Positions 27,168-45,626 of a stretch of 64,000 nucleotides of DNA are shown piece by piece. A model generated the notes under the pieces. That model saw only the letters and a program-made list of their open reading frames with translations. It did not search any database and had not been told where the DNA came from. Location of the stretch: contig CAJJBZ010000002.1 of the NCBI GenBank assembly GCA_905182535.1, forward strand, positions 1-64,000, read 5' to 3'. Position numbers and translations under genes: made by a program. Each line of letters begins with the position of its first letter. The stretch's first letter is position 1. Source of the stretch: an uncultured Planktomarina sp. (GTDB lineage: Bacteria > Pseudomonadota > Alphaproteobacteria > Rhodobacterales > Rhodobacteraceae).

Positions 27168-28424
27168 ATGTCGGAGAAAGTTATAATCATCGGAGCCGGC
27201 GCCGCAGGGATTGGTGCGGGGCTGGAACTGCAAGCGCTTGGCATTCCTTTTGTCATCATAGAAGCTAGTAACCGCATTGGCGGTCGCGCCTACACAGATA
27301 AAACGTCACTGCGAAGCCACTGGGACCAAGGCTGTGGGTGGTTCCACTGCGCGGATGTAAACCCTCTTGTCCATTGGGCAGACAGATTACGCTCAGTTTA
27401 CGACCGTAATGATCGCAGTAAAAATGCGTTATTCTGGGTTAAAAATCGGTGGCTAGACATGGCCGAAAGTGCTTCAGTCCATAGCAGCATCAATGACAGG
27501 TTTAATACTATTTATGCGGTTGCAAAAAAAGGCTTAGACGTTCCCATCTCCGATGTTCCAGCAAAAGCAGGTATTGGGGAAGCTATTGCCGAGGAGATGG
27601 TACGGCTGATGTGTAGCGATGACACTAAGTATGCCTCCGCTGTGGGTTATGGTGATTATAATGATACTGAAGTGAACTGGGCTGTAACTTCAGGTTATGG
27701 GGATTTAATTAATCGAATGGCGACCGGTTTGCCAATCCATACGAGAACAGAAGTTGTGTCTGTAGAGTATCATCGGGGCGGCGTGAGAGTGCAAACCAAT
27801 TCGGGACAGATCGATGGGCGCGCGGCCATTGTGACAGCTTCAACGAACGTGTTGAGATCAGGGAAAATTTCTTTCCCCTCAGGCCCAGTCCAGACGCTAC
27901 TGGATCTGGTAGAGGATGTGCCTTGTGGAACGTATGAGAAAGTGGCCTTAGCGCTCAAACACTATCCACTCGACCCCAAAGATAATGAAGCTTTATGGGT
28001 GCACCAGCACTCAAGGGAAAGTCCAATTTATTTTCAAATTATCCACGGTAATCAACCAATGATGATCGCGCATATCAGCGGCGATCAAGCCCGAGGTTTG
28101 ATCGCCGCTGGACCACAAGAAATGGCTGATTTTGCAATTCAGAAATTAAAAAATATTTTTGGGTCTCATGTTCAAGATTTGATCTGTGGCACTGCGGTTA
28201 CGGGGTGGCAAACTAACCCCCTAATACAGGGCGGTTACAGCTATGCCCGCACAGGTGCGGGACAGAACCGGCGCAAAATGATTACATTGGATACCGGTGT
28301 AATTACTTTTGCCGGTGAGGCATTTTCACTGCCGTGGTATGGCACTGCCCACGGTGCCTATGAAAGTGGAAAATGTGCAGCGTCGCGGTTACAGGTACTT
28401 TTAAATTTAAAACCCGCTAGTTGA
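27168..28424 (+). CDS. Flavin-containing amine oxidase family protein
   Basis: 418 residues. The N-terminal FAD-binding motif VIIIGAGAAGIGAGLELQAL is followed by IEASNRIGGRAYTD, the classical amine-oxidase GGR motif, and DQGCGWFHCADVNPLV. The C-terminus has ITFAGEAFSLPWYGTAHGAY, the flavin-contacting segment, and SYARTGAGQNRRKM. The family oxidises primary or polyamines with O2 or other acceptors. The substrate is not predictable; related alphaproteobacterial proteins are annotated as monoamine oxidase, or as desaturase-like flavoproteins. The frame is intact and the gene appears to be a single transcription unit, convergent with the large minus-strand catabolic operon. Confidence 0.82.
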   Translation: MSEKVIIIGAGAAGIGAGLELQALGIPFVIIEASNRIGGRAYTDKTSLRSHWDQGCGWFHCADVNPLVHWADRLRSVYDRNDRSKNALFWVKNRWLDMAESASVHSSINDRFNTIYAVAKKGLDVPISDVPAKAGIGEAIAEEMVRLMCSDDTKYASAVGYGDYNDTEVNWAVTSGYGDLINRMATGLPIHTRTEVVSVEYHRGGVRVQTNSGQIDGRAAIVTASTNVLRSGKISFPSGPVQTLLDLVEDVPCGTYEKVALALKHYPLDPKDNEALWVHQHSRESPIYFQIIHGNQPMMIAHISGDQARGLIAAGPQEMADFAIQKLKNIFGSHVQDLICGTAVTGWQTNPLIQGGYSYARTGAGQNRRKMITLDTGVITFAGEAFSLPWYGTAHGAYESGKCAASRLQVLLNLKPAS

Positions 28425-28488: not shown

Positions 28489-29184
28489 CTAAGTCCGACT
28501 ATTTTCAAAGTCTGCCCATGCTTTTTCAAATGTTTCAAAGTCAAAAAGAGCCTCGCGGGCAGGTTTCAAAATTAGCTGCTCTGTTGTAAGCAGTTTCTCG
28601 ATGGAGCTCTCTAACGTTTTGATTACCTCTTCTGGGATGACAACCGCACCATGCCGGTCAGCGTGAACCAAGTCACCCTCGATAACCTGCATACCAAAAA
28701 TTTTAATTGGAGTTCCTATTTCTTTAACATGTACAAAACCATGGCTTGGGCCAATCGACCCAGCTACAACAGGATAGCCAGCTGGATTATCACTAAGGTC
28801 ACGCATTACGCCGTTCGTTAGCGTGCCGGATAATCCAAAACCTTTGTGAACTGTAGTATTAATTTCTCCCCAATATGCACCGATACAATCAGGGAAATCT
28901 AAATCCTCAACCACTGCAACAGCCGGCATCGGGGCGGAGGCCATGTATTTATAGTAGTCCATACGGCGTTTCTTGATAACTTCCGGCGCCTCAGACGGGG
29001 GCAGCACAGCAGCAATTTTAGCGGTTCTTGCATATCCGACGATTGCCAGTTCGTGAGGTGAGCTACAAAGGACTGTGCCGCGAGTGAAGGCATCGAAGCC
29101 CCTTTTGCCTTGGGCTACCTCGATTGCGTTGCAAACAGTTGGCGTATCGACAGCTCGTAATACTTTTAGCAGGCTTGGTGTCAT
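28489..29184 (-). CDS. RraA-like aldolase/decarboxylase family protein
   Basis: 231 residues of the RraA / HMG-CHA aldolase fold. DTPTVCNAIEVAQG is the N-terminal element. The pocket pattern is in GTLTNGVMRDLSDNPAGYPV (the G-x-x-x-D/R-D set) and EGDLVHADRHGAVVIPEE, which carries the metal-site Asp. In catabolic clusters such proteins act as 4-hydroxy-4-methyl-2-oxoglutarate or oxaloacetate-type lyases, needing a divalent metal; RNase-inhibitor function is limited to the E. coli type. It is the last gene of the 28.5-41.3 kb operon, eight bases after the MetE-like gene, so a terminal lyase step is a reasonable guess. Confidence 0.82.
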   Translation of the reverse strand: MTPSLLKVLRAVDTPTVCNAIEVAQGKRGFDAFTRGTVLCSSPHELAIVGYARTAKIAAVLPPSEAPEVIKKRRMDYYKYMASAPMPAVAVVEDLDFPDCIGAYWGEINTTVHKGFGLSGTLTNGVMRDLSDNPAGYPVVAGSIGPSHGFVHVKEIGTPIKIFGMQVIEGDLVHADRHGAVVIPEEVIKTLESSIEKLLTTEQLILKPAREALFDFETFEKAWADFENSRT

Positions 29185-29192
29185 TGAAACAA

Positions 29193-30320
29193 TTACCTCA
29201 CTAAGCTAGCGCCCTCAGACAGGCTTGTTAATTTCGCATACGCAATATCTGGATCGACAGCACCAAACCCAGCAAATGTGCCAAAGCCACAATCAGAGCC
29301 GCCAATCACACGGTCTCGACCAACAATTCCAGCAAATCGTTCAATCCGCTGGGCTATCAGTTCTGGATGTTCAACAAAGTTAGTCGTCGTATCAACAACA
29401 CCAGGTACAAGAACCTTACTATCCGGAATTTCCGATTTGCGATCGCGAAAAACCGTCCACTCATGCGCGTGACGTGGATTTGAAGTTTCAAACAATAAAT
29501 ACTGCGCTTTAGTTGACATAAGTGTTGAGAAAACTTTGTCCATTGGGATATCGCAGCAATGCGGTCCCTCATAGTTCCCCCAGCAAATGTGGATACGCAC
29601 CTTATCTTCAGGCACATTCTTCAAGGCATGGTTCAGCGCCTCTACATGGGAGGCGGCAACTTTAAGGAACTCATCATCAGTCAGGTCTTGAAATAGCATA
29701 TGCCGCGACAATGCTAGGTCAGGGCAATCCAATTGAAGGTCCAGGCCAGAAGCGATAATCGTTTCGTATTCCTCACGCATCGCATCTGCGAGTGCAGCAA
29801 GATATGCATCGCGAGTCTTGTAGTGATCATTTTGTAAAAAAAGAGATATTACGCCAGGTGAAGCCGCATTCATAAAACCACGTTCCACCCCATGTTTAGA
29901 CATTGCACCTTTGAGATTGTCTATGTCCTTTTTCAGCTCACCTTGGCCTTTTGATTTGACCTCACCTGTACACATTGGACGCGCGTATTGTGGGGTACCA
30001 CCATCGTCGGCAAGCCGTTTTAAAAATCCTGGGAACATCTTTAAATCACCCGGTGCATTACGAGGGCTATCGCCAGAAAAACCTGTGTAGCGGTCTTTGA
30101 CATAGGTCGCATATGAGATTTTTGACGTCTCGCCGTCACTCACAATATCTATACCAGCTTTGACTTGCTTGGCTACGGTCTCGTCCACCGCGACTGTCAT
30201 CGCAGTATCAAATTCTGCTTGATCAAACGACTGTTCATTCTCACGCGCAAAAATAAAATCTACAACGTTTTGTGTACGCGGAAGGCTGCCAACATGAGAG
30301 GTAAGGATTTTGTTCATCAT
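29193..30320 (-). CDS. MetE C-terminal-like (cobalamin-independent methionine synthase family) protein
   Basis: 375 residues, the size of a stand-alone catalytic UROD/MetE-like barrel. It starts with LTSHVGSLPRTQNVVDF. GIDIVSDGETSKISYATYV is the conserved G-E-x-x element. The zinc ligands appear as the His of HICWGNYEGPH, the Glu of LLFETSNPRHAHEW and the Cys of GGSDCGFGTFAG. Lacking the N-terminal MetE half, such proteins are usually not methionine synthases but methyl- or thiol-transfer enzymes in degradation pathways (compare epoxyalkane:CoM transferase). The start is one of two tandem ATGs (30320 or 30317) behind AAAGAG. Eighth-to-last step is not implied; it is simply the penultimate gene of the operon, between the bicupin and the RraA-like gene. 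Confidence 0.8.
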   Translation of the reverse strand: MMNKILTSHVGSLPRTQNVVDFIFARENEQSFDQAEFDTAMTVAVDETVAKQVKAGIDIVSDGETSKISYATYVKDRYTGFSGDSPRNAPGDLKMFPGFLKRLADDGGTPQYARPMCTGEVKSKGQGELKKDIDNLKGAMSKHGVERGFMNAASPGVISLFLQNDHYKTRDAYLAALADAMREEYETIIASGLDLQLDCPDLALSRHMLFQDLTDDEFLKVAASHVEALNHALKNVPEDKVRIHICWGNYEGPHCCDIPMDKVFSTLMSTKAQYLLFETSNPRHAHEWTVFRDRKSEIPDSKVLVPGVVDTTTNFVEHPELIAQRIERFAGIVGRDRVIGGSDCGFGTFAGFGAVDPDIAYAKLTSLSEGASLVR

Positions 30321-30350
30321 TTCTCTTTCAAAAACAGTTAAATAAGATTG

Positions 30351-31308
30351 CTATAAACCCGTCCAAGTTGGACCCGCGGGATCATCATTAGACATAACCC
30401 GATAGAGGCTAGCTTCACCAGCCATGGAAGGCTGTAAATTATGTGTGAACCCTGACGGAAGCAGGCAAGTATCACCAGGATTTAATGTCACAGCCCCACC
30501 ATTCCATGAGAGTTTCCAGTGACCTCGCATCGGCATCAGCACAACGGAATATCCAATGGAGATGGAGACGTCTTCCAAAGACCCTCGAGTAATAAACTCG
30601 ATATCAAAGCCAGGTTTGTCAGGCAGTATAGCATCAGAGCCAATAACCTTCGCAGGAGACTTCCCGGCGAGCCCCATCAAGTCGAGATACCGCGCAACGT
30701 GGCGCGGGATCACGTCCAAGGCTAAGGGCTCCGGCATGCTGTGCAATTCAGCATCACTCAGAACTTGCATCGGGCCAACACCGCTAGGCAGCTGCATACC
30801 TTTTTTGGTATCGTAAAGCTTGCCATTATCACCCAATATCAAACCATGCTTAGCAGCATCTTCGATGACTTGAGGGGCCCACGTCACACCACCACCGGCG
30901 TCGTCACCACCGAGAACGGCCATGATCATTCCATAGTCAATCCCAATATTTTCAAAGCCCCTAAAAATACCAGTGGGAATATTAATTATGTCGCCTTCCT
31001 CCAGTAAAACCTCACCGGCGTCGCCCCAACGTCCCCAAAAAAAACGCCAGCGGCCCTTTAGCACGAAGAAAACTTCAGCAGCTTCCGTCGCCGGCCCGGG
31101 CTTCGGGCTGGCCTGCAGCTCCAATATTAAACCCCGGTGTGTCCTGAATATGGACATGCTGGTCCACACTTTCACTGACACCGCCACCAATGATCGTAAA
31201 ATTCTCTTTTTGATCACTGCCTGGCGTGTGTGCGTCGATAAACGCTGTCTTACACGGAACCAAATCACCGTAGCGTACAATACACGCTTCCATTTCTGCT
31301 GGTGTCAT
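30351..31308 (-). CDS. Bicupin protein (gentisate-dioxygenase-like fold), one frameshift
   Basis: About 318 residues once one indel is repaired. The true start is ATG 31308 (MTPAEMEACIVRYGDLVPC), four bases after the upstream NTF2-like gene. The first cupin has VSESVDQHVHIQDTPGF followed, after an extra G at 31121-31122, by ELQASPKPGPATEAAEVFFV and DIINIPTGIFRGFENIG. The second has SVVLMPMRGHWKLSWNGGAV and NPGDTCLLPSGFTHNL. A clear metal triad is seen only partly: the first cupin lacks the usual HxH and keeps Glu and some His, so catalysis is uncertain. It might be a sugar-acid isomerase, a dioxygenase or a binding protein. Confidence 0.7.
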
Positions 31309-31312
31309 TTAC

Positions 31313-31690
31313 TTACCCTGTCTTCATTGCGATCTGTTTCCAAATCGAAGTTTCATCATATAGTGTATACTCACGGCGAATGCCCCAAGGACCAAATTCG
31401 ACATGACTTGCACCCATAACATGCACTTCGGCTCCTGAAGGTTTACCGAAGGCTCCCCATCCATCATGCTTGCCGGTCAGGCTCCAACGGATCGCAGCGC
31501 GTGGTGACATCATTGGGTCTTCGCGTCCTATTTGATGTTCAATTGCAAACGTTGCTGAAGGAAACGCAGCACGCAGCTTTATCCAAAAATCATCGACACC
31601 ATCAGTTGATACCAATTCCACACCACCAGGGTAAAACCCTGTTATGGCGCGATCATACTCTGCAGGAATAATACTTAAATCAGCACTCAT
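31313..31690 (-). CDS. NTF2/SnoaL-like small protein (125 aa)
   Basis: Single alpha+beta barrel domain of the NTF2-like superfamily, 125 residues. DFWIKLRAAFPSATFAIEHQ and AAIRWSLTGKHDGWGAFGKP are typical of SnoaL-like cyclases (a helix, then the long curved strands), and a GKPSGAEVHVMGASHVEFG stretch recurs in its cluster paralogues. No catalytic Asp-His pair can be assigned with confidence. The ATG overlaps the stop of the preceding NTF2-like gene by four bases (ATGA), suggesting a heteromeric complex of the two. Function unknown; family members act as cyclases, hydratases or isomerases on polyketide- or steroid-like substrates, or are non-catalytic. Confidence 0.75.
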   Translation of the reverse strand: MSADLSIIPAEYDRAITGFYPGGVELVSTDGVDDFWIKLRAAFPSATFAIEHQIGREDPMMSPRAAIRWSLTGKHDGWGAFGKPSGAEVHVMGASHVEFGPWGIRREYTLYDETSIWKQIAMKTG

Positions 31691-32280
31691 GATGCGCCAA
31701 AAATATCAGCATATTTTGCGCCCCATTCATTATCGTTGCCGCGGCCTGTGTAGGGACCAACTTTATCGATTGAAGGATGGAAAGGTTGCACACAGTTTTC
31801 CACACCACCCTCCTGCTCAATCAGGTCAACCGCGTATTCTTTTGGGTCCCAACCCAACTGACGCACAACGGCTCCTTGATCTCGTATCAGCCATTCATCA
31901 TTGATTTGATTATTGATCGCATGGCAATCCGCAATAACGCGGTAGCGCAGCTTGGCGCCTGTCGGCTTACCATAAATCCCAGCACCCAAGTGCGTCGCCG
32001 TTGTCAAAATACGGTGAGACGACAACATGCCCTCCTCCGGGCTTCCCGACCAAATCACATCTTCACCGAGTAGACGCCTGTCAGGGAATTCAGCGAGGGT
32101 TGCCATCGTAGCACCTACAACGCCTACGTTTCCAAATACTATTGAGCCAGGAGACCTCACTGGAATATCTTCAGAATAATAGTGGTTTAGCGTGGAAAGC
32201 CCACGGTTTTCCCAAATTTCTTTAGTGATACCCAATATGTAATCAGGAAAATCGGTGAACTGATCTGAAAAGCCTTTCAT
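31687..32280 (-). CDS. NTF2/SnoaL-like protein (197 aa)
   Basis: 197 residues, MKGFSDQFTDFPDYILGITK. One NTF2-like domain (about 15-145: LGITKEIWENRGLSTLNHYY, DIPVRSPGSIVFGNVGVVGA, GIYGKPTGAKLRYRVIADCH) plus a C-terminal extension rich in Gly and acidic residues. ATG 32280 is chosen because it overlaps the LacI stop by four bases and has AAGGA eight bases upstream; the ATG at 32289 has no proper spacing. It is coupled to the 125-residue paralogue downstream. Its position immediately after the LacI-type regulator inside the operon is unusual for an enzyme unless the whole set is co-regulated. Confidence 0.75.
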   Translation of the reverse strand: MKGFSDQFTDFPDYILGITKEIWENRGLSTLNHYYSEDIPVRSPGSIVFGNVGVVGATMATLAEFPDRRLLGEDVIWSGSPEEGMLSSHRILTTATHLGAGIYGKPTGAKLRYRVIADCHAINNQINDEWLIRDQGAVVRQLGWDPKEYAVDLIEQEGGVENCVQPFHPSIDKVGPYTGRGNDNEWGAKYADIFGAS

Positions 32281-33293
32281 GACGTCCATCCTTCTGGAAT
32301 TTTAGCAGAGCTACGAACAATCAGTGGGCTATCAATTTTGATATGCCGTGGCGCAGATGCAGGGTTTCTAATTTTTTCAATCATCAAAGTAACCGTTTCT
32401 TTGACCATCACGTCAGCACGTTGGCGTACAGTTGAGAGATCGTAAGCAGCCCATGATGCTGGTGGGACATCGTCATAGCCAACAACACTGACATCATTCG
32501 GTATGTGTAAATTCAATTCACCACGCAGCACATCCATAACGGCAAATGCCATATGATCTGTAGCTACAAATACTGCGTCTGGATGATCAGATTCCCCAAA
32601 CATCTGACGAGCAGCTTTTTTTGCACCTTCCACTGTGAACTGACCGAGGGCATGTGCCGCGAGAGCTTCACCTGCTTCAGCCAATGCACTGCGGAACCCA
32701 GCCTCTCGTTCACGCTGGGTTGATGCGCCCTCCCACCCACCGATATAGCCGATACGCTTATGGCCAGCTGCAAGAAAAAATTCAGCCACAGATTTACCAC
32801 CAGAAAAATTATTTGATGTGACAGCAGAATGATTTGCCGCATCCTGAGATCGATTAAACAAAACAACGGGTACCCCTGCGGCTTCACAGCGTGCGGTCAA
32901 ATCGCTCGAAAGACCGACGCTGGCAGTGATGATACCCTCAACTTGATAATCAAGTAATTCATCAATAACTTGATCCGTTGATAGCGTATCATTTGTAGCC
33001 ATAAAAATAAGGACGTGGTAGCCTTCGGATTGCAAGTAATTTGAAAGTTTTTCCAGCGCTAGAGGATAGAAATAATTATCCAAATACGCTACTACCAAAC
33101 CAATGATACGGCTTTTTCCCGTAATAAGTGAGCGAGCCAGGACATTTGGGCGATAGCCCAGCTCTTGGGCTGCCTCACGCACTTTCAAAATAGTTTTATT
33201 GCTAGCCGAAGCTCCAGGCGTAAAGACACGGCTGACTGCAGACTGGCTAACCCCAGCACGCTTTGCTACTTCTAATGAGGTCACTTTATCCAT
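32277..33293 (-). CDS. LacI family transcriptional regulator
   Basis: 338 residues. The N-terminal helix-turn-helix (about 4-50) reads VTSLEVAKRAGVSQSAVSRV with the hinge region AAQELGYRPNVLARSL. It is followed by the periplasmic-binding-protein-like effector domain (SRIIGLVVAYLDNYFYPL, GKSVAEFFLAAGHKRIGYIG, PDAVFVATDHMAFAVMDVL, SVVGYDDVPPASWAAYDLST). The effector domain implies control by a sugar-like or related small ligand, consistent with the ABC importer in the same operon. The ATG at 33293 overlaps the SDR stop (TGATG). Being inside the operon it would autoregulate; I could not find a convincing LacI-type palindromic operator in the 41301-41460 control region. Confidence 0.9.
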   Translation of the reverse strand: MDKVTSLEVAKRAGVSQSAVSRVFTPGASASNKTILKVREAAQELGYRPNVLARSLITGKSRIIGLVVAYLDNYFYPLALEKLSNYLQSEGYHVLIFMATNDTLSTDQVIDELLDYQVEGIITASVGLSSDLTARCEAAGVPVVLFNRSQDAANHSAVTSNNFSGGKSVAEFFLAAGHKRIGYIGGWEGASTQREREAGFRSALAEAGEALAAHALGQFTVEGAKKAARQMFGESDHPDAVFVATDHMAFAVMDVLRGELNLHIPNDVSVVGYDDVPPASWAAYDLSTVRQRADVMVKETVTLMIEKIRNPASAPRHIKIDSPLIVRSSAKIPEGWTS

Positions 33294-34057
33294 CAATCTG
33301 CAGTCCAGCCACCATCAATAATTATATTCGTACCAGTCATCAGTGCGCTAGCGTCTGACGCCAGATACACAACCGCGCCCATTATATCAGTCACTTCTCC
33401 TATACGTCCAAGTTTGATCTTTTCCTTAATCCACTTAACCCTTTCAGGGTTAGAAAACGTAGGTTCAGTGAGGGGAGTACGCACAAAAGTGGGGCAGATG
33501 GTATTTACTCTAATCTGATGAGGGCCTAGCTCAATCGCCATGGCTTTAGTAAAGCCCTCCACAGCATGTTTGGTGGCGCAGTAAACAGCGCGCTCAATCC
33601 CACCAACATGGGCCATTTGGCTAGATACATTTATCAAGCTTCCCGGCCTTCTAGCCTCAACAAGGCCTTTGGCCACTGCTGTTGTCAAAAAATAGGCCCC
33701 TTTGATATTAAGGCCAGCGACGACGTCATAGTCGTCCTCAGTCGTATCAATCGCCAATGAATGTAACGCAGCACCTGCCGAATTTACTAAAATATCAAAT
33801 GGTCCTGAAGCCCTAACTGACACTTGAGTGGCGGCTATATCTGAGACGTCCATCGCCATTGCATTTGCTACTAGCCCCATGGCCCTAAGTTCAAGCACTG
33901 CTTCTTCTAACTTGTCCACCGAACGCGCGGCAAGAGTGACTTCAGCACCAGCTTGCGCAAGGGCCACAGCACAGCCAAGGCCAATACCGGATGAGGCGCC
34001 AGCGACCAGTGCTCTCTTTCCATCTAAGCGGAATGATGGAGTTTGTGGCAGGGTCAT
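33293..34057 (-). CDS. Short-chain dehydrogenase/reductase (SDR)
   Basis: 254 residues, classical SDR. The cofactor motif is ALVAGASSGIGLGCAVALA (TGxxxGxG variant with Ala first), then DILVNSAGAALHS (NAG region), SLINVSSQMAHVGG (catalytic Ser) and YCATKHAVEGFTKA (Tyr-x-x-x-Lys). The Arg at AARSVDKL after the second strand favours NADP(H). The C-terminus GTNIIIDGGWTAD is typical of the gluconate/glucose-dehydrogenase-like branch. It probably oxidises or reduces a hydroxyl group of the imported substrate. ATGA overlap with the double-NTF2 gene upstream and TGATG overlap with lacI downstream. Confidence 0.9.
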   Translation of the reverse strand: MTLPQTPSFRLDGKRALVAGASSGIGLGCAVALAQAGAEVTLAARSVDKLEEAVLELRAMGLVANAMAMDVSDIAATQVSVRASGPFDILVNSAGAALHSLAIDTTEDDYDVVAGLNIKGAYFLTTAVAKGLVEARRPGSLINVSSQMAHVGGIERAVYCATKHAVEGFTKAMAIELGPHQIRVNTICPTFVRTPLTEPTFSNPERVKWIKEKIKLGRIGEVTDIMGAVVYLASDASALMTGTNIIIDGGWTAD

Positions 34058-35100
34058 GCCACTGCCTCGTCTGCAATTGGAATGGGGCCAGTAGCGCGCG
34101 CCTTATTGAATTCACGCAACCTCGCAAAGACGTCGACTCCCAATTGGGAATAGACGTCTAAAAGATCAACTAATACCCAATTTTCACGAATTTTGCCTTT
34201 TTCCATCCGCCAAAAATCTAATGAGCGAAGCTTGATTTTCTGACCATTGGGCACAATACCCATCCAACCATCACGCGCCATAGTTTGCGCCATATCTGGC
34301 CAACCAGTAACCGCCACATAATCACCTTCAGCAAAGAAATGGGCCAATACTTCATCCTTATATTGCCCGCGATCAGGCATGGCATTCAGGAATGGGATTT
34401 GATGCCAATTGCGAAAGCCTGAAATACCACGCGCCGTTCCGATCCCAGCGGGCCCGTACCATGACATTTTTGGATGCCAGTATCGCTCTAGTTCCATTGA
34501 AGCAACTGGCTCAATAGGGTGACGCGACAGAGCAACCAGCATATCGATTACATGTGTCAGACTTTGATTAGATTGCGCTGTATCATCTGGACGATCCACT
34601 AACCCATCCTGCGTCATGGGCGTAGGCGTCGCCCATTCACGTCCCAAGCTGGGTGCCATAGGCCAAGCGTTTGCCTGCATCATCAATTCTGGAATATCCC
34701 AGATAGCCTGAACCTCGACAACCTGGCCGTTTGAAATCTTATAAAACTCATGGAACCTCATGTGAGCAAGATGGCCCGTTGGTGGAATCTCGAGGAAGGG
34801 CGCCACAAATGTTCCAACGTATGATCCACAGCAACCAACCCAGTCAGAACCTTCAGGCGTAGTTCCTCTGACAATTATTGCGTCACGACGTTCTACATCC
34901 GGAAATGCAATTTGAAGTGGCTTAAAACAGGTGTCATACAAACTATCAGTAGTTAGGTCGCCAAAGGGGTGACACATTCGAACGTCACATGTGGGAGAGA
35001 GTATATCTACAATTGCCTGACGTAACTGCGTCTCATCCAAATCCCGAATTGCTTTTAAAAACAGCTCTATACTTTCTCTATTTTTCTGCGCGCTATTCAT
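34054..35100 (-). CDS. Tandem double NTF2/SnoaL-domain protein (348 aa)
   Basis: Two NTF2-like domains in one chain. Domain 1 (about 5-150) ends IPPTGHLAHMRFHEFYKISN then QVVEVQAIWDIPELMMQ. Domain 2 (about 185-330) has RYWHPKMSWYGPAGIGTARG and ends VPNGQKIKLRSLDFWRMEKG then NWVLVDLLDVYSQLGVDVF. The shared pattern P-x-G-(x)5-R-(x)3-(E/D)-(F/Y) followed by G-(x)n-W/D-(I/L)-P/D marks each unit. Aromatic residues (Trp, Tyr) and conserved His/Asp could line a pocket. The same architecture recurs in the divergent gene at 41461. The gene lies between the HisD-like and SDR genes with ATGA coupling. Confidence 0.8.
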   Translation of the reverse strand: MNSAQKNRESIELFLKAIRDLDETQLRQAIVDILSPTCDVRMCHPFGDLTTDSLYDTCFKPLQIAFPDVERRDAIIVRGTTPEGSDWVGCCGSYVGTFVAPFLEIPPTGHLAHMRFHEFYKISNGQVVEVQAIWDIPELMMQANAWPMAPSLGREWATPTPMTQDGLVDRPDDTAQSNQSLTHVIDMLVALSRHPIEPVASMELERYWHPKMSWYGPAGIGTARGISGFRNWHQIPFLNAMPDRGQYKDEVLAHFFAEGDYVAVTGWPDMAQTMARDGWMGIVPNGQKIKLRSLDFWRMEKGKIRENWVLVDLLDVYSQLGVDVFARLREFNKARATGPIPIADEAVA

Positions 35101-36429
35101 TTATTCTCCAACTTTACGAAAAGCTGCTCCTTCGCCATAAGGGACATTAATTCCACCATACCGTCGAACTCGGATATTACATTGTTCCGCATGCCCAACA
35201 AAACCTTCTAACATGCATAATCTACTACCATATTCACCTACCAGTGTAGCAGCCTCGTCAGTTGTGATCTTTTGATAAGAGTGCGTTTTTAGGAACTTCC
35301 CAACCCATAGGCCACCTGTGTATCTGCCTGCTTTTTTTGTTGGGAGTGTGTGGTTCGTACCAATAACCTTATCTCCGTTTGAGACATTTGTCCGCGCTCC
35401 AAGAAACAATGCACCATAGCAAGTCATTTTTTCCAAAAACCAATCATCACGATCTGTCATAACTTGGACGTGCTCAGATGCGATATCATCCGCCACTGAA
35501 AGCATTTCATCATAGGTGTCGCACAAAATCACCTCTCCATACTCGGACCAACTAACCGATGCTGTATCAGCTGTTGGAAGGATGGTGAGAAGGCGATCAA
35601 TCTCACGCAGAGTATCTTCTGCTAGCTTACGAGAATTTGTGAGCAGGATCGCAGGACTATTGTATCCATGCTCCGCTTGGCCAAGAAGATCAGTTGCACA
35701 CAATTCACCGTCAACGGTCTCGTCTGCAATTACCATTGTCTCGGTGGGGCCAGCAAAAAGATCGATCCCAACACGACCAAATAGCTGCCGTTTTGCTTCT
35801 GCGACAAACGCATTGCCCGGACCAACAAGCATATGCACAGGATTAATTGTTTCAGTCCCAATAGCCATTGCACCAACCGCCTGAATGCCACCCATCACAA
35901 ATATTTCGTGAGCACCACCAAGATGCATAGCCGCGATCACAGCAGCATTTGGCTTGCCATTAAAGGGCGGTGTGCAAGCAACTATGCGCGGCACACCCGC
36001 GACTGACGCCGTAGCAACAGACATGTGAGCAGATGCAACCATAGGAAATTTACCACCAGGAACATAGCAGCCAACCGATTGCACTGGTATATTCTTATGA
36101 CCCAAAATTACGCCAGGCATCGTCTCGATCTCAATATCAAGCATGCTGTCGCGTTGGGCTTGGGCAAAGTTGCGCACTTGTTTCTGGGCAAAGTTAATAT
36201 CAGCCAACTCACGCTCGGTTAACGATGCTATTAACGCCTCAATCTCATCCTCAGTTAGCTTAAACGAGGCTGGGCTATAACTATCAAATTTCTCAGACAA
36301 GGAACGCACTGCAGAATCGCCCAAATCTTCTATCTGTTTCAGCGTACTCTCGACAATGGCCTTAGTTTTAGCATCATCTTCAGCCCGCTCCGTATCAGGT
36401 TTCCCACGCTTTAGATAATATACAGTCAT
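35101..36429 (-). CDS. HisD-family alcohol/aldehyde dehydrogenase, catabolic paralogue (HpsN-like)
   Basis: 442 residues with the histidinol dehydrogenase fold. [53 protein letters not shown] and [18 protein letters not shown] are the conserved NAD and zinc segments (Gln-Ala-Glu-His). [20 protein letters not shown] contains the catalytic His, and [17 protein letters not shown] lies near the C-terminus. HisD itself makes histidine, but this copy is embedded in a transport operon with no his genes, as seen for HpsN, the sulfopropanediol dehydrogenase. A four-electron oxidation of a primary alcohol to a carboxylate, via an enzyme-held aldehyde, is the likely chemistry. The substrate is unknown, and the sulfonate-specific partners are absent here. 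Confidence 0.85.
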
Positions 36430-36914
36430 CGGTCTCTCCTTGGTGATGGTGGTGCTTTTTCACCACAGTCAAATGCCTCCCAGCCTTGACCATTAAAAAC
36501 GTCTACGCCCAGTTGCGCCAACACATGTGGAAAATCCACCATTACCCAATTATCAGTAATCTTGCCACGTTCTACTTTCCAAAAATCCATGTAACGAATT
36601 TGTATCTTTTTTCCTGATGGCTTTACGCCCATAAAAGTACCCGAGTGAACAGCTTCTTGTCGTCCAAATGCTGCAGCCCATTCGCCCATATAAAGCCGAG
36701 CTTCATCAACACATACCTTGTCAGAGAACGCTGCTTGGAAAGGCTTTTGCCAGTTATCTTGAAACTCACGGACACCCTCTTTGGTTCCGCAGCCGGTGTT
36801 GCCCATCCAACGAAAGCTCTCATCAAAAAACTCACCAATATCAACAATACGATGATCATTGAGGCCATCAACCATTCCCTCAATGACGGCACGTGTTTCT
36901 TCCGTCTTTGACAT
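36426..36914 (-). CDS. NTF2/SnoaL-like protein (162 aa)
   Basis: Single NTF2-like domain, [20 protein letters not shown]. The middle carries [20 protein letters not shown] and the end [20 protein letters not shown] then [19 protein letters not shown], very similar in pattern to the second domain of the double-NTF2 protein at 34054. I chose ATG 36914, which has an AGGG site eight bases upstream; an in-frame ATG at 36962 overlapping the permease stop (ATGA) would add 16 poorly conserved-looking residues. It overlaps the HisD-like gene by four bases. One of five such genes around this transporter. Confidence 0.78.
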
Positions 36915-36958
36915 GTTGGTATCCCTAGTCAGGACGGCTTGTTCTGGTCTTGGTCCGA

Positions 36959-37840
36959 TCATCCTTTTACTGCTCCCGCTGTGAGGCCACTAACTATTTG
37001 ACGTTGAAAAAACATAACTAAAAGAAACAAGGGCGCAGTAGCAGATACAACGGCTGCAACCGCGAACATAACGTTACCTTCTACTTGAGTAGTTCCTAAA
37101 AAGCTTGCAATTTTTGGGACCATTGTCTGACTGCTTTGGCCCAGCAATGTGGCTGTAACGGTGAAATCATTGTACGCCAGTAAAAATGAAAATAACCCAG
37201 TAGTAATAACGCCAGGCCACATAACAGGTACGATTACGCGTCTGAATGCTTGGAACCGAGTGCAGCCATCAACCATCGCACTTTCATCAAGATCTTTGGG
37301 TATATTCAGAAAAAAGCTATGAAGCATCCACAATGTAAACGGCTGGTTTATAGCCACTAAAACAATAATAGCTGTCGGCAGGTGTCCCCAAATATTCCAC
37401 TCAAAGAACGGTAGTAAGTACCCTGAGACCAGTGTGATGTGGGGCATAGCTCGAAACACTAAGGCGAGCATCAACAAGTAAAATGCATATTTTTTGCCCG
37501 ACCTGGCCAATGCATAGCCGCCCAGAGTGCCTAGTGTTAGAGATATTACTACAACAGAAATCACAACAATCATTGTATTTAGTGCAGCGGTCCAAAATGA
37601 TTTGGTTACCCACGCACCAAAATAGCCATCTCCAGTAAAAGCACCACCAGTTTCTATCTGCGTACGCACCCCACTGATTGCATAAGTCCAATCCGCCTTG
37701 GAGAAGAAATCCCCCTGAACTTTAAAAGAGCCCCACATAGTCCAAAGAAATGGGAACCCTGCAGCTACAACCCAACACAGTACAAATACCCATATTACGA
37801 TATTTAGTGACTTTGGGCGCCGATGAATAAGCTCAGACAT
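36959..37840 (-). CDS. Sugar-type ABC transporter permease (MalG/CUT1 class)
   Basis: 293 residues and six predicted membrane helices. It starts MSELIHRRPKSLNIVIWVFV, with a first helix at about 12-32 and a large periplasmic loop holding the FFSKADWTYAIS and GDGYFGAWVTKSFW stretches. The inner-membrane-component signature (EAA loop) is DESAMVDGCTRFQAFRRVI followed by VPVMWPGVITTGLFSFLLAY. It pairs with the upstream permease and the ATPase to import a carbohydrate-like solute. The ATG at 37840 shares one base with the upstream TAA (TAATG), so the pair is translationally coupled. Confidence 0.9.
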   Translation of the reverse strand: MSELIHRRPKSLNIVIWVFVLCWVVAAGFPFLWTMWGSFKVQGDFFSKADWTYAISGVRTQIETGGAFTGDGYFGAWVTKSFWTAALNTMIVVISVVVISLTLGTLGGYALARSGKKYAFYLLMLALVFRAMPHITLVSGYLLPFFEWNIWGHLPTAIIVLVAINQPFTLWMLHSFFLNIPKDLDESAMVDGCTRFQAFRRVIVPVMWPGVITTGLFSFLLAYNDFTVTATLLGQSSQTMVPKIASFLGTTQVEGNVMFAVAAVVSATAPLFLLVMFFQRQIVSGLTAGAVKG

Positions 37841-38870
37841 TACACGACCTTTCCCTTGAAGTCCCGCCACGTCCTGAACAAAACAGGTATCAATAATACG
37901 GCAACACCCAAAATAGTTAGAACTGAAGTTGCTCCCGCAGAGCCAAAGAAACTGCCTTCACCGCCTGCTAGGTCATTAAAGATAATCCAAGACAGAGAAG
38001 TCGCGTTAGCTTGTGCAGAGAAGCCAACGATAGGTTCGAACACACGGAAATTATCCATCAGTTGGATTAGCGCTATAAAAACAATCAGTGGCACCAAGTG
38101 TGGTAGAACTACATAGCGCGTGCGTTCCCAGCGAGAGGCACCATCAATCATGGCAGCTTCAATCGTCTCTGCTGGAACGGTTTGTAGACCTGCGTAAAAT
38201 ATAATGAAGGCGAAGGGCGCGGAGTGCCAGACTCCGTACACTATCAACATTGCCCAGGTTACTTAGGTGAAGCCTTCAACGACAAATTTGGATCTTCAAA
38301 AAGCCACTGTAACGTGGAACCTAAAATCCCCTCAGCATCAATCATCCAAAAAAGTATCAGCGAGCCGATTAATGGTGTCACTATCATTGGAAGAAGCGAA
38401 ACAAAAATAGTTGGCCCCTTGAACTGTTTGGGCAAACTATTGACGCCCAGCGCGATGCAAAAGCCAAGTAGCAACACCATTGGTGTAACCACAAAAGTAT
38501 AAGTAAGAGTGAATGCCAGAGCACGGTAAAATGGTAGGTTGTAAGCTTCACTTAAAAAGACTCCAAAGGTTGGGCTATTAGTCCAGGCTGTAGATAACTC
38601 CGAAACAGCAAGGTGATTGCGGTTTTTATAAGTTCCAAATCCATTAAATTTCCCCAAAGGGCTATCTTGTTTAAGCTGAGAAGTTGCGTCAACATCGACT
38701 TGCATTTCAAGTTTGCATCCAAATGGGCCACAATTTTTAACTTCTTTTAAAACTGTAGTGTGCTCGATGTGTAGGGATTGGATGAACACTGATCCAATCG
38801 GCAGTGCGATAAACAGCATCATCGTCACTAATGACGGTAGAATAAACCAAAAAAATGTACGGTTTTTCAT
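37840..38870 (-). CDS. Sugar-type ABC transporter permease (MalF/CUT1 class), one frameshift
   Basis: ~343 residues when joined. The N-terminal part has a first helix (WFILPSLVTMMLFIALPIGS), a ~90-residue periplasmic insertion with two cysteines (NCGPFGCKLEMQVDVDATS) and helices to about 200. The C-terminal part resumes with AMLIVYGVWHSAPFAFIIFY and carries the EAA signature ETIEAAMIDGASRWERTRYV then VLPHLVPLIVFIALIQ. The break is one missing base near 38262-38266 (an A-run) just before VTWAMLIVYG. It is the partner of the downstream permease and lies 60 bases after the binding-protein gene. Confidence 0.85.
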
Positions 38871-38931
38871 TTTGAGTGCCTATTAATGTAATGTAGTAGG
38901 GGAAGAGCGGTGGCTCTCCCCCAGGGCTTCC

Positions 38932-40167
38932 TTACTTAAGGAAACCTTTTTCTGTTGCAGCCGCAGTATATGCCGCTTCAACGTCCATCAAAGCTTGCTC
39001 TGCACTTTCAGATCCCTGTAGGAAGTCTGAAATTTCAGCGCCAAGCGCCCCATGTAATGTGCCCATAAATGGGAGCATTGGATATGGTGCTGCACCACCT
39101 GCTGCGGTTGCCGTAACTCCTGCAGATGCAGCCGATGGCGTATAGCCATCACCGAGCCAGACAGTCGCATCATTGTTTGCCTTTATAACATCCGAGGATA
39201 TGCCATGCATCATAGCAATGAAGGTTGCTTCCGCATCTTCATCAGAAATATTTGCCGAAATTGCGATGCCGTCCCACCAGAGTGTTGACGCTGGACGTGC
39301 ATTGTTACCCCAAGTTGGCGCACCAGTAAGTACAGTTGTGGATGTTACAGCCTCAGTTGAACCTTCACCATCCAAGACAGCTCCACCACGACTACCCCAC
39401 AATGTTGCCAATGCTATATTTCCAGCTTCCCACTCAGCCTGAGTGGCATTAGAGTCATATGTCAAATAATCTGGATTTGAATAAGCAACCAAAGACTTGA
39501 GCATATTCAATGTTGCAACGCCATGATCATTGTTGACAGCTACTTCAGCTGTACCCGGCTTAAAAAATTCTGCGCCAGTACCCATGTACATGTTGACAAA
39601 CTCTTCCGCGAGGTTCCAACCAGCTTTGGTATTCAAAGCTACTGGATAATCCATTAAACCCGCAGATTTGATTGCTTCAGCCGCTACTAAAACGTCTTCA
39701 TATGTTGCGGGGATACTGCTTACGCCAGCTTGCTCCAACATGTCAGAACGTGAAAATAAATGCTGTGCGTTAGCCATAAAGGCAACAGCCATAATTTTGC
39801 CATCTACTGTGACCAATTGGCTTGGCTTCAGACCTGAACCGTGCTTTTCGACCAGAGCATCCAACGATTGCACCAGGCCATCATTCATCAATGTGACCAA
39901 GGTAGAGTTACTTGCAATAATCGAAGTGTATTGCGCAGGATTAGCTGTCAGTGCTGCAACCATAATATCTTTATGGTCTTTGGTGAGGTTAGCTTCGACC
40001 ATTACGCCGTCACCAGCACAAGTACTTGCGGCAGCAGTTACGGCTTGGATGGCGGGGAAGTCATTTGAAAGAATGCTAACATTACCCGAAGAAATTCCAC
40101 ATCCTGCCATTGCCGTAGTGCCAAGGAACATGAATGCACCAGCTACTGTTATTTTATTTAGAAACAT
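38932..40167 (-). CDS. ABC transporter substrate-binding protein (family 1, sugar type)
   Basis: 411 residues with a Sec signal peptide (MFLNKITVAGAFMFLGTTAM, cleavage likely after AMA). The mature protein starts near GCGISSGNVSILSNDFPAIQ. The Cys there does not fit a standard lipobox and probably forms a disulfide with Cys in STCAGDG. The middle holds QAEWEAGNIALATLWGSRGG and RPASTLWWDGIAISANIS, typical of family 1 carbohydrate-binding proteins. ATG 40167 is preferred over longer in-frame starts because GGGAG lies five or more bases upstream. It is the periplasmic receptor of the importer. Several Trp and Tyr residues in the C-terminal half suggest a ring-stacking ligand, which is inference. 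Confidence 0.9.
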   Translation of the reverse strand: MFLNKITVAGAFMFLGTTAMAGCGISSGNVSILSNDFPAIQAVTAAASTCAGDGVMVEANLTKDHKDIMVAALTANPAQYTSIIASNSTLVTLMNDGLVQSLDALVEKHGSGLKPSQLVTVDGKIMAVAFMANAQHLFSRSDMLEQAGVSSIPATYEDVLVAAEAIKSAGLMDYPVALNTKAGWNLAEEFVNMYMGTGAEFFKPGTAEVAVNNDHGVATLNMLKSLVAYSNPDYLTYDSNATQAEWEAGNIALATLWGSRGGAVLDGEGSTEAVTSTTVLTGAPTWGNNARPASTLWWDGIAISANISDEDAEATFIAMMHGISSDVIKANNDATVWLGDGYTPSAASAGVTATAAGGAAPYPMLPFMGTLHGALGAEISDFLQGSESAEQALMDVEAAYTAAATEKGFLK

Positions 40168-40248
40168 TTGTTTCTCCCAGTTGTAGTAAGATACGACAAA
40201 CTTTGCCACATCTTGGTTAATCCCCACCATGGGGAACCTTAAAGGGGA

Positions 40249-41300
40249 TCAGCCCCCAATCCGCGCACCCGTTTGAACATCAAACAAATGGCAAATTTCT
40301 TTAGGTACAGAAATGCGAACCATGTCACCAATTTCTCACACGATAATCCTTATGTGCCTTGACCGAAACTAGCTCACCATTCAACCGCACAGTGATCATT
40401 GTCGCATCACCCAACAACTCCATTGTATAGACTGCCGCGTGAATATCGCCGCCCTCATTTACTATGCTCGCATCCTCAGCACGAAATCCAAGCTGAGCAG
40501 GCTGGCTGGGTGCAGTAAACCCAGAAACGGTAAGGTCGCTCGAGCTAAACTTGTTATTCACAACGTCACCCTGAACCAAATTCATTGCAGGGGACCCTAT
40601 AAAGCTTGCAACAAAAGCATTTTCAGGTCGGTCATAAATATCTGTAGGACTACCAACTTGCTGAACAATTCCACCCTTCATAACAACCACACGATCTGCA
40701 AGGGTCATCGCCTCAATTTGGTCATGCGTCACGTAGATAGTTGTAACCTTCAACTCATGACTCAGATTCTTTATCTGAGCGCGTGTAGACACGCGAAGTT
40801 TTGCATCTAAGTTGGAAAGCGGCTCATCCATCAAAAATACATTTGGTTCACGTACAATCGCACGGGCCAGTGCCACACGCTGTCTCTGACCACCTGAAAG
40901 TTCTGCCGGCTTTCCTGTGTAAGAATTCGTCCAACTCTACCATGGAAGATGCACGCATCACCCTATCATTGTGCTCTGATTCTGGAATTTTTCGTACTTT
41001 TAGTGGGAATCGGATATTTTCATACACATTCATATTTGGATAAAGTGCGTAAGATTGAAATACCATCGACACATCTCGATCCTTTGGATCAAGATCATTC
41101 ACTCGAACCCCGTCGATGAAAATATCACCATCAGTGACCTCTTCAAGGCCGGCAATCATACGCATTGTTGTAGTTTTTCCACAGCCCGACGGGCCTAAAA
41201 GCACAAGGAATTCTTCATCTGCAACTGTGAGGTTGAAGTTTTCTACACCTACAAACGAGCCCCAGCGCTTGGATAAATTACGCAATTGAATTTCGGCCAA
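40249..41300 (-). CDS. ABC transporter ATPase (MalK/UgpC class), two frameshifts
   Basis: ~350 residues. Walker A is [20 protein letters not shown] and the Q-loop [20 protein letters not shown]. The LSGGQ signature appears only after removing one A at 40911-40913 ([19 protein letters not shown]). Walker B and the H-loop are [17 protein letters not shown] and [18 protein letters not shown] second indel near 40331-40337 hides the last ~27 residues ([19 protein letters not shown] then VQTGARIGG), which end at TGA 40249. The C-terminal OB-like regulatory domain ([18 protein letters not shown]) is present, as in sugar importers. The start is TTG 41300 with GGAGG five bases upstream. First gene of the 14-gene minus-strand operon. 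Confidence 0.88.
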
Positions 41301-41460
41301 CTCGCCCTCCCATAAACGATCAGAGATGATTTTGAACGATCTCTAAGAAAGTTATCCGTTGATCTATTGTCAGCGCAAGCAATTTCTGCAAGCGTATGCA
41401 AGATTATACTTAAATAAGAAATCATAACCTCTATAAGATAAGTAAATAAGGGAACTAACG

Positions 41461-42456
41461 TTGAATTTTCAAGCTGAAAAAAAATTAGTACGGGACTTTT
41501 ACAAGTCCTTGGATGCGGCAAGTGGGGAGGGAATCACTTCTGTCTTGAAGAGTTTCACTGCGGCCAACTACGAATGGCGTGCGTTTCATCCCTTTAACTT
41601 GAAAACTGATATTCAGGACGTTTCAGACAATTTCTGGCAACCCTTCCGCCATGCAGTCACTAGCATACAGCGTCGAATGGACGTCTTTTTTGCAGGTGAC
41701 AACTTCATTGATAGCGGGTCGTCCGTGTGGGTCTGCTCAATGGGACACCTAATGGGCCTGTTCGATAATCCCTGGTTAGGCATCCAACCAACTGGTAAAA
41801 TGGTTATGCTGAGGTATGCAGAATTTCACCAAGTGGTGGATGGTAAAATTACCGAGACAGCTTTCTACTTTGATATTCCACACTTCATGATTCAAGCTGG
41901 ATATGCACCATTTCCAGAACAAACAGCAGCCCATATGGTCCAGCCTGGCCCAGCACCTCATGATGCCCTTTTGTTCGAGGATGCGGTTCCAAAAGCAGGG
42001 CAAAGGACGATGGCCGCCATAAACTTTATGATAGAGGATCTTGGACAGTGGCAAAGTGGCTTACCGCTAGTGGAGGAGCTTTCACGAAGTTGGCACGACG
42101 ACATGGTTTGGTGGGGACCCGCGGGGATTGGTGCAACCTACACAATTGCACGATATGCCGAACAACACTCGGCTCCATTTCGCGCCGCATTCACTGACCG
42201 ATCTGGTACGGACCATATCGCACGCATCGCCGAAGGAAACTATGGCGGCTTCTTTGGGTGGCCAAATTTCATAGCAAAACCAACAGGCGGATACTTAGGG
42301 CTTCCGCCCAGTGACAAAAGTAGCGAATTTCGTGTTATCGATATTTATCGACGCGAGGGTGACAAACTCCAAGAAAACTGGATATTCATCGATATGCTGC
42401 ACTACCTAAAGCAACAAGGCATCGATATTTTGGGACAAATTAAGACAGTAGGCTAG
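41461..42456 (+). CDS. Tandem double NTF2/SnoaL-domain protein (331 aa), divergent to the operon
   Basis: 331 residues starting at TTG (41461) with an AAGGGA site. Two NTF2-like units: domain 1 has NYEWRAFHPFNLKTDIQDV and ends QPTGKMVMLRYAEFHQVVDG then FYFDIPHFMIQAGYAP. Domain 2 has SWHDDMVWWGPAGIGATYTI and ends PPSDKSSEFRVIDIYRREGD then NWIFIDMLHYLKQQGIDIL. The W-x-GPAGIG element matches WYGPAGIGTARG in the 34054 gene, so they are paralogues. It is divergent from the ABC operon across a 160-base control region and probably belongs to the same regulon. Function unknown. Confidence 0.8.
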   Translation: MNFQAEKKLVRDFYKSLDAASGEGITSVLKSFTAANYEWRAFHPFNLKTDIQDVSDNFWQPFRHAVTSIQRRMDVFFAGDNFIDSGSSVWVCSMGHLMGLFDNPWLGIQPTGKMVMLRYAEFHQVVDGKITETAFYFDIPHFMIQAGYAPFPEQTAAHMVQPGPAPHDALLFEDAVPKAGQRTMAAINFMIEDLGQWQSGLPLVEELSRSWHDDMVWWGPAGIGATYTIARYAEQHSAPFRAAFTDRSGTDHIARIAEGNYGGFFGWPNFIAKPTGGYLGLPPSDKSSEFRVIDIYRREGDKLQENWIFIDMLHYLKQQGIDILGQIKTVG

Positions 42457-45184: not shown

Positions 45185-45626
45185 CATCTTCTCCAACCAA
45201 ATCAGCAAAGCTTTTAAAAAATTTCGTCGCTAATTTTTTAGAAGTACCCTGGATCAACCGGCTACCTAATTGCGCCAGCTTGCCACCAATATCTGCAGTT
45301 GCTGTGTAGTGTAGCAGAGTGCCGTCTAGATGTTTTTCTAACTCCACCACAGCTCCACCCTTAGCATAACCCGCAGCTCCACCATTGCCTTTGCCAGTCA
45401 GCGAAAACCGCTCCGGGGGGGCATCTGGACTCAGCGTGACGTTACCACTGAATTTAGCTTTTACGGGACCAATTTTTAGCACAACTTTAGCTTCTAATTC
45501 GGTGTCCGAATGCTTGACCAGCTCCTCACAGCCTGGGATGCACTGTTTAAGAATTTCAGGATCATTTAATGCAGCATAGACGACTGCTTGAGAGGCCTTG
45601 ATTATAATTTCGTCTTTGAGTTCCAT
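45174..45626 (-). CDS. coxG: CO dehydrogenase subunit G family protein (CoxG, SRPBCC fold)
   Basis: 150 residues, SRPBCC/polyketide-cyclase-like fold. MELKDEIIIKASQAVVYAAL, PEILKQCIPGCEELVKHSDT and KIGPVKAKFSGNVTLSPDAP are diagnostic of CoxG, as is GGKLAQLGSRLIQGTSKKLA near the C-terminus. CoxG is reported to help anchor CO dehydrogenase at the membrane or assist quinone interaction; it is not a catalytic subunit. It overlaps the downstream XdhC gene by about 11 bases. A gap of 131 bases separates it from the MobA-like gene upstream, so it may have its own promoter. Confidence 0.88.
   Translation of the reverse strand: MELKDEIIIKASQAVVYAALNDPEILKQCIPGCEELVKHSDTELEAKVVLKIGPVKAKFSGNVTLSPDAPPERFSLTGKGNGGAAGYAKGGAVVELEKHLDGTLLHYTATADIGGKLAQLGSRLIQGTSKKLATKFFKSFADLVGEDDAT

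Follow-up and report, generated by a model that had tools for sequence, protein, structure and literature searches.

The stretch of DNA analysed here (the window) comprises 64,000 nucleotides of an uncultured Planktomarina sp. (assembly GCA_905182535.1, contig CAJJBZ010000002.1) and represents contig C2 of a 2.39-Mb metagenome-assembled genome (MAG) of 16 contigs that is 74% complete. Positions 28489 to 42456 hold a block of genes that looks built for the uptake and breakdown of a single small compound, probably methylated. Among the relatives found that bear a name, the MAG Rhodobacteraceae bacterium ASP10-04a (L032) is nearest, with 93% identity of one protein. The minus strand of 28489–41300 contains 16 open reading frames (ORFs), nested shadow ORFs excluded. 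Pfam searches detected RraA-like, Meth_synt_2, Cupin_2, SnoaL (several), LacI, short-chain dehydrogenase/reductase (SDR), Histidinol_dh, BPD_transp_1 and ABC_tran families across the cluster ORFs, in agreement with the families assigned earlier from the letters and translations only (the sequence-only reading). The features are as follows.

28489..29184, minus strand: RraA-like protein, predicted class II pyruvate aldolase (PF03737; RD motif; weak LigK similarity)
29193..30320, minus strand: core-MetE-type methyltransferase without folate domain (PF01717; seven zinc/homocysteine residues)
30351..31280, minus strand: bicupin, predicted dioxygenase; the N-terminal part of the ORF is not the true one (frame broken near 31082–31107)
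31313..31690, minus strand: double-SnoaL protein, C-terminal half of a split gene (Pfam; relatives; L032 alignment)
31687..32289, minus strand: N-terminal half of the same double-SnoaL protein (Pfam; relatives; L032 alignment)
32277..33296, minus strand: LacI-family regulator, within the operon (PF00356, PF13377)
33293..34057, minus strand: SDR dehydrogenase (PF13561)
34054..35100, minus strand: double-SnoaL protein, the query defining the loci (PF07366; structural model)
35101..36429, minus strand: HisD/HpsN-family dehydrogenase, predicted NAD- and Zn-dependent alcohol-to-acid oxidation (Pfam; PDB matches; residues)
36426..36962, minus strand: single-domain SnoaL protein (PF07366, 64.4 bits)
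36959..37870, minus strand: ABC sugar-type permease 2 (PF00528)
37840..38250, minus strand: ABC sugar-type permease 1, 3' part of a split gene (PF00528; indel at 38264 relative to L032)
38259..38870, minus strand: ABC sugar-type permease 1, 5' part (relatives; L032 alignment)
38932..40230, minus strand: extracellular solute-binding protein of the importer (similarity to a Ruegeria conchae gene)
40325..40876, minus strand: ABC ATPase, 3' part of a split gene (PF17912 OB_MalK, 23.1 bits, below the cut-off of 27)
40848..41300, minus strand: ABC ATPase, 5' part (PF00005)
41387..41400, no strand: putative LacI-type operator TGCAAGCGTATGCA (sole TGCAWNCGNWTGCA match in the window)
41461..42456, plus strand: divergent double-SnoaL protein (PF07366)

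The solute-binding protein gave no Pfam match and is 51% identical to the product of a Ruegeria conchae gene annotated 'extracellular solute-binding protein'. Comparison with relatives reduced the 16 ORFs to 13 minus-strand genes, to which the divergent gene is added. The ORFs at 31313–31690 and 31687–32289 correspond to one double-SnoaL gene of about 325 aa in relatives, and annotated Ruegeria conchae genes show that those at 40325–40876 and 40848–41300 form one ABC ATPase and those at 37840–38250 and 38259–38870 one permease. The fourteen minus-strand genes and five NTF2/SnoaL-like genes counted in the sequence-only reading do not stand: the SnoaL genes number four (1 single and 3 double, the divergent gene included), two of the ORFs being halves of one gene. 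The divergent SnoaL gene described there was confirmed, as was the tight same-strand packing, gaps between consecutive genes ranging from −31 to +94 bp.

The window and L032 share 94% nucleotide identity over the main piece. Single-base indels relative to L032 lie in or beside the split genes (31699, 38264, 40335 and 40915), the cupin gene has a disturbed stretch at 31082–31107, and further indels were found at 30335 and 38927 (both intergenic) and as a compensating pair (35070/35093) inside 34054–35100. Frame breaks in the ATPase, permease 1, double-SnoaL and cupin genes would be expected if the operon were decaying and no longer worked in this genome, though kept in relatives. We regard such decay as unlikely and favour errors in the MAG sequence, since the unbroken genes retain 92–98% protein identity to L032 (excluding genes interrupted there by runs of N) and a malic-enzyme/phosphotransacetylase-like gene (recognized by eye) elsewhere in the window, at 24323–26795, is broken into two overlapping ORFs in the manner of the operon's split genes, which may itself point to sequence errors. 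L032 cannot decide between error and decay, because its own interrupted genes contain runs of N.

The gene set occurs widely. In genome_contigs, a relative of the double-SnoaL protein at 34054–35100, used as the query, is encoded at 204 places, and 80 of these loci, most of them from Rhodobacteraceae or relatives, were kept. A gene was scored as present at at least 35% identity and more than 80 bits, and 54 loci of at least 20 kb were treated as full loci; as the double-SnoaL gene served to select the loci, its own occurrence in 80 of 80 is uninformative. The other genes were found, in all loci and in full loci, respectively, as follows: second double-SnoaL (70/80; 51/54), single SnoaL (68/80; 50/54), HisD-like (67/80; 50/54), LacI (67/80; 51/54), cupin (64/80; 50/54), SDR (60/80; 48/54), MetE-like (54/80; 43/54), divergent SnoaL (54/80; 45/54) and RraA-like (53/80; 42/54), together with an alpha/beta-hydrolase (49/80; 41/54) and an amidohydrolase (27/80; 23/54). 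The importer genes were also found in most of the full loci (ATPase 52/54, solute-binding protein 53/54, each permease 53/54). The gene order recurs in Rhodobacteraceae, Roseibium/Labrenzia, Kiloniella and one Oceanospirillaceae MAG. The homologues, which might have proved to be scattered in other genomes, therefore stay together, and this co-conservation raises the likelihood of the single pathway suggested earlier, although that pathway is still something we infer. Three loci (L078, L088 and L103) had no HisD, cupin, MetE, RraA, LacI or SDR match and a fourth (L051) no HisD, SDR, cupin, MetE or RraA match. In L078 and L103, where HisD, cupin and MetE are all missing, a double-SnoaL gene adjoins sugar-type importer genes, and such SnoaL–importer pairs seem to exist as separate units.

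An independent sample of 385 genomes drawn from the class contained double-SnoaL matches in 28 (E ≤ 1e-20), MetE-like matches in 72 (E ≤ 1e-60) and matches to the L033 cupin in 29 (E ≤ 1e-40). The MetE-like family extends beyond the operon. A cupin of at least 60% identity was present in 21 genomes, in 17 of which a MetE-like gene lies no more than 1 kb away on that contig (no more than 160 bp in 16). As for the exceptions, G349 has only an adjacent MetE fragment at a contig end, G084 and G074 have MetE on another contig, and no MetE-like match was found in G193. One genome (L126; G157, contigs C89 and C90) carries the cupin–MetE pair twice.

The region between the divergent SnoaL gene and the ATPase gene contains a palindrome, TGCAWNCGNWTGCA, at least once in 50 of 53 loci (window included) and at least twice in 32; it was not found in the regions of L052, L128 and L136, nor in 200 mononucleotide shuffles of all 53 regions, which are related and hence not independent observations. 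The window has exactly one such site, at 41387, presumably bound by the LacI protein of the operon itself. That the genes form one operon-like unit, as first proposed from their packing, is supported by their staying together in many genomes and by the operator shared by most loci. Exact TTGCAWNCGNWTGCAA sites not of the CCGG type numbered 10 in 13 genomes, 7 being at this cluster and 3 elsewhere (two in G346 and one in G222), whereas sites with one mismatch occur at clusters and elsewhere alike; the search of these 13 genomes named no further regulon member. A different perfect palindrome, TTGCAACCGGTTGCAA, occurs at G000:C1:279836, C1:287467 and C16:109149 as well as in G154, G252 and G331, and resembles an operator for a different LacI-type regulator.

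The dehydrogenase at 35101–36429 had been called a HisD paralogue. The family holds, but in the PDB HpsN entries match best (E 2e-114) and HisD only after them (6e-72), which places the protein closest to HpsN and not to the histidine-biosynthetic enzyme. Ordinary histidine biosynthesis could be ruled out on this ground and because six near-complete relatives each encode, apart from it, another HisD-family protein that scores better; G000, which is 74% complete, has no HisD-family match other than the cluster copy, and the HisD proper of that genome may lie in its missing part. All eight catalytic/zinc positions are kept in 10 of 10 members, the alignment at E414 being uncertain, and so are the equivalents of E. 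coli HisD Q259, H262, E326, H327, D360 and H419. Since the family, the zinc ligands and the catalytic Glu/His are shared with HpsN and HisD, a four-electron alcohol-to-acid oxidation is expected. An excerpt of PMC11382572 gives GRY[AS]H, with His126, as the discriminating motif of HpsN and GSAPL as that of HisD. The corresponding columns read GKFPM in the window, each conserved in at least 95% of 78 sequences. By this published motif the enzyme is neither HpsN nor HisD, which suggests a third specificity class of the family. If the gene were nonetheless hpsN, the operon would serve sulfonate catabolism, namely that of 2,3-dihydroxypropane-1-sulfonate (DHPS). HpsN is indeed the closest solved relative and its Lys353 is kept, but GKFPM replaces GRY[AS]H with His126 and no sulfolyase is found among the Pfam matches of the operon; the DHPS pathway was rejected by the motif test and we consider it highly improbable.

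For the MetE-like protein (29193–30320), an excerpt of PMC7857596 lists the zinc residues H641, C643, E665 and C726 and the homocysteine residues S433, E484 and D599. All 14 members examined, from the operon or related to it, retain the seven residues, and the folate domain is absent; the methyl acceptor is accordingly expected to be a thiol and the donor something other than a folate. The protein scores 53.7 bits against the PRK09121 (MesD) model, far below the cut-off of 392, and no DUF1852 was found among the Pfam matches of the operon genes; the DUF1852-paired Vibrio gene passes this model. The folate-side residues W561 and H707 were not used as a test, E. coli MetE, as read here, having Leu at 707. 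Its location among catabolic genes makes a pathway intermediate a possible methyl donor. A deletion mutant of a Mes-like protein of Phaeobacter inhibens, which may or may not correspond to the MetE-like gene, is reported in part of PMC12366255 to have retained the shortening of the lag phase by dimethylsulfoniopropionate. MetE and the alpha/beta-hydrolase were also considered as alternative means of removing one and the same methyl group, and this idea was not supported: among 69 loci both occur in 44, MetE only in 14, the hydrolase only in 9 and neither in 2 (2.6 expected).

The HxHxxxE motif of the cupin is invariant in 36 of 36 sequences, and His51 and His53 might serve as metal ligands in a model that is weak at this point. 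The profile matched acireductone dioxygenase first (E 0.002), followed by a cupin of unstated function (0.04) and 3-hydroxyanthranilate dioxygenase (0.08). The modelled fold is nearest to those of quercetinase and salicylate 1,2-dioxygenase and also close to that of oxalate decarboxylase (11–17% identity in the listed fold matches), and the protein thus resembles ring-cleaving dioxygenases as judged from the model. The RraA-like protein scores 57.9 bits against PF03737 (cut-off 24.5) and keeps the RD motif in the alignment. The double-SnoaL protein at 34054–35100 gave a confident model (predicted local distance difference test score, pLDDT, 91) nearest to the polyether epoxide hydrolase MonBI-MonBII and SnoaL-type cyclases, a modelled likeness that leaves its reaction unfixed. 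The nearest models for the SDR are glucose 1-dehydrogenase, gluconate 5-dehydrogenase and KduD, and the amidohydrolase is fuconolactonase-like, all below their cut-offs.

More distant variants were compared in 20 genome stretches and 7 plasmid stretches, where the HisD, second double-SnoaL and cupin genes recur most widely. Thirteen of the 20 stretches had a cupin match, of which 9 lacked an RraA match (L126, L136 and L142 reach a contig end soon after). Two of these 9 carry an HpcH/HpaI aldolase instead (L130:4164–4946 and L133:16229–16996) that scores best against the GarL and HpaI models, below their cut-offs, and such displacement is a hint, though no proof, of a pyruvate aldolase function of the RraA-like protein. 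No HpcH/HpaI aldolase was found in the other loci; as a general stand-in for RraA, present in just 2 of 109 loci, it was not accepted and is only suggestive. In a Halobellus plasmid five SnoaL genes adjoin a 40% MetE-like gene. On a Vibrio pelagius plasmid (L115), sarcosine oxidase, purU and serine dehydratase genes lie next to an ABC importer and four double-SnoaL genes, with a MesD-type methionine synthase and DUF1852 further along.

We propose a LacI-controlled catabolic operon for a class of O-methylated polyhydroxy compounds, most likely with an enone/enediol carbocycle, a course that we hold to be about evenly poised between right and wrong. In this scheme, i) the sugar-type ABC importer would take up a small, polar O-methylated polyhydroxy compound, ii) the SnoaL proteins would carry out isomerization, hydrolysis or dehydration at the enone system, iii) the core-MetE-like enzyme would pass the methyl group to homocysteine, iv) the HpsN-like dehydrogenase would oxidize a CH2OH beside a carbinol to the carboxylate with two NAD+, v) the SDR would adjust a ketone or alcohol, vi) the bicupin would perform an O2-dependent C–C cleavage of the enediol, and vii) the RraA-like aldolase would finally split a 4-hydroxy-2-oxo acid into pyruvate and a second oxo acid. 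What the analysis demonstrates is the gene content, its co-conservation, the shared operator and the kept catalytic residues; the individual reactions, their sequence and the class of substrate are read from these.

Several observations weigh against this scheme. MetE is missing from 11 of the 54 full loci and has no match in L134 or the Ensifer locus L116, so demethylation would not be universal; conversely, L137, L138 and L141 have a MetE relative (49–59%) and no other operon gene. The cupin has an arginine in place of the usual histidine of motif 2, its model has a pLDDT of 73 with a low-confidence N-terminus, and its PDB profile E-values are weak. The RraA-like protein reaches only 23.8 bits against the LigK model TIGR02798 (cut-off 304.5), and 7 of the 9 cupin-bearing stretches without RraA are also without an HpcH/HpaI aldolase (three near a contig end). 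Finally, the SDR, the fuconolactonase-like amidohydrolase and LacI suit a sugar route equally well.

Such a route would degrade an O-methylated sugar or sugar acid, the SDR forming a lactone, the amidohydrolase opening it, the HisD-like enzyme oxidizing the terminal CH2OH, SnoaL proteins carrying out a dehydration and the aldolase releasing pyruvate. We rate it as rather unlikely. In its favour are the sugar-type importer with LacI, the nearest models of the SDR, the amidohydrolase in 27 of 80 loci and the GarL-like aldolase (below cut-off) in two variants. However, the best matches of the cupin are dioxygenases, the four SnoaL genes would be left unexplained, and the unassigned clusters present in at least 10 loci comprise only the alpha/beta-hydrolase, the amidohydrolase and a methyltransferase (by eye); neither a sugar kinase nor a sugar-acid dehydratase was noticed to recur in these clusters, for which no family-aimed search was made.

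A second alternative is a pathway for a methoxylated aromatic acid such as syringate, ending in 4-carboxy-4-hydroxy-2-oxoadipate. Stretches of Croceicoccus and Sphingobium contain a DesA gene and a 51–52% MetE-like gene with a small NTF2 gene after it, and that of Croceicoccus also holds LigK, LigU, LigJ and LigAB. Syringate catabolism of Pseudomonas NGC7, as described in an excerpt of PMC12314914, likewise uses an alpha/beta-hydrolase that opens a methyl ester, a SnoaL-like (NTF2) protein proposed as isomerase, and an aldolase. The Croceicoccus stretch and the syringate enzymes also count in favour of the course that we propose above. In contrast, the Croceicoccus DesA, LigB, LigJ, LigK, LigU and MTHFR were unmatched (at least 35% identity, more than 80 bits) in 103 operon-related loci, GalA, LigI and LigM not being among the queries; moreover, a benzoate needs no HisD-type oxidation and the importer is of the sugar type. 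We therefore consider the aromatic pathway improbable.

Within the proposed class of O-methylated carbocycles, a tentative and on balance doubtful candidate is the mycosporine/gadusol family. Mycosporine-like amino acids and gadusols are UV sunscreens of algae, corals and cyanobacteria, and their skeleton combines a 2-methoxy enone with a CH2OH-bearing tertiary carbinol and amino-acid substituents. The SnoaL enzymes would free the cyclohexenone/imine ring of its amino acids, the core-MetE enzyme would transfer the 2-methoxy methyl straight to homocysteine, and the cupin would cleave the resulting cyclic reductone as acireductone dioxygenase does; a cupin of this type had been proposed for the route before the profile search ranked acireductone dioxygenase first, in a weak match. 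The HpsN-like enzyme would oxidize the C5 hydroxymethyl group, the ring-opened end, −OOC-CH2-C(OH)(R)-CH2OH, being shaped like DHPS with carboxylate for sulfonate. The product would be 4-carboxy-4-hydroxy-2-oxoadipate, a compound on which the LigK branch within the RraA superfamily acts, which can be reached from the mycosporine skeleton on paper and which an RraA-type aldolase would convert to pyruvate and oxaloacetate. The full loci without MetE and the sugar-suited SDR, lactonase-like amidohydrolase and LacI count against these substrates in particular. If this doubtful assignment were right, the cluster would be the first recognizable operon for full bacterial catabolism of these compounds and would provide gene markers for the microbial turnover of natural sunscreens. 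Neighbouring amino-acid genes were considered as a sign of amino-acid release and dismissed as too rare and too weak: among 109 loci, gcvP lies beside 4 and gcvT beside 3, these loci being close relatives of one another; on Vibrio plasmids, serine dehydratase adjoins 2 loci and sarcosine oxidase 1; and DadA adjoins 1. L133 has a D-amino acid dehydrogenase above its cut-off.

Two other regions of the window were noted. A flavin amine oxidase gene (27168–28424, plus strand) adjoins the RraA-like gene and, among the fetched loci, lies beside the cluster only in L032. The minus strand of 44240–47177, with an XdhC/CoxI-type gene at 44240–45208 and ORFs resembling CoxG, a MobA-like protein and a second XdhC (by eye), is probably a molybdenum hydroxylase accessory set.

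Consistent with the earlier description of the gene set as undescribed, no paper on it appeared among the matches listed in the open-licence literature (titles and abstract starts; subscription papers and preprints lie outside this scope). The same matches contained no reference gene set for mycosporine/gadusol catabolism and nothing relevant on homarine, a candidate that was set aside. Should the substrate be a common algal metabolite, a flow of carbon from phytoplankton to bacteria that has so far had no assigned genes would be named. Two enzyme novelties are also suggested, namely a core methionine synthase with a catabolic intermediate as methyl donor and the additional HisD/HpsN specificity class.

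Catabolic operons with sugar-type importers are known, and what would be new here is the combination of genes, the third HisD/HpsN motif class and a catabolic core-MetE. The MetE-like protein is similar to the core (folate-independent) methionine synthases MesA to MesD in consisting of the C-terminal MetE domain alone with all zinc/homocysteine residues, but it misses the PRK09121 cut-off and is encoded in a catabolic operon. The dehydrogenase shares family, zinc ligands and catalytic Glu/His with HpsN (sulfopropanediol 3-dehydrogenase, PDB 8v35) and HisD, and Lys353 with HpsN, whereas its substrate motif and operon are different. The cupin has the bicupin/cupin fold and HxHxxxE of the ring- or enediol-cleaving salicylate 1,2-dioxygenase, quercetinase, acireductone dioxygenase and 3-hydroxyanthranilate dioxygenase, from which it differs in the His-to-Arg change of motif 2 and in its low identity to the listed fold matches. 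With the 4-carboxy-4-hydroxy-2-oxoadipate aldolase LigK/GalC, the RraA-like protein has the family and the RD motif in common, yet similarity is low and far under the LigK cut-off. As a whole, the proposed operon would follow the logic of the syringate/3-O-methylgallate pathway (DesA, MgaC/DesC, MgaD, GalBCD/LigUJK), i.e. methyl removal, ring opening, NTF2 isomerase, alpha/beta-hydrolase and class II aldolase, but its loci have no DesA or LigB match and contain a cupin and a HisD-like enzyme instead.

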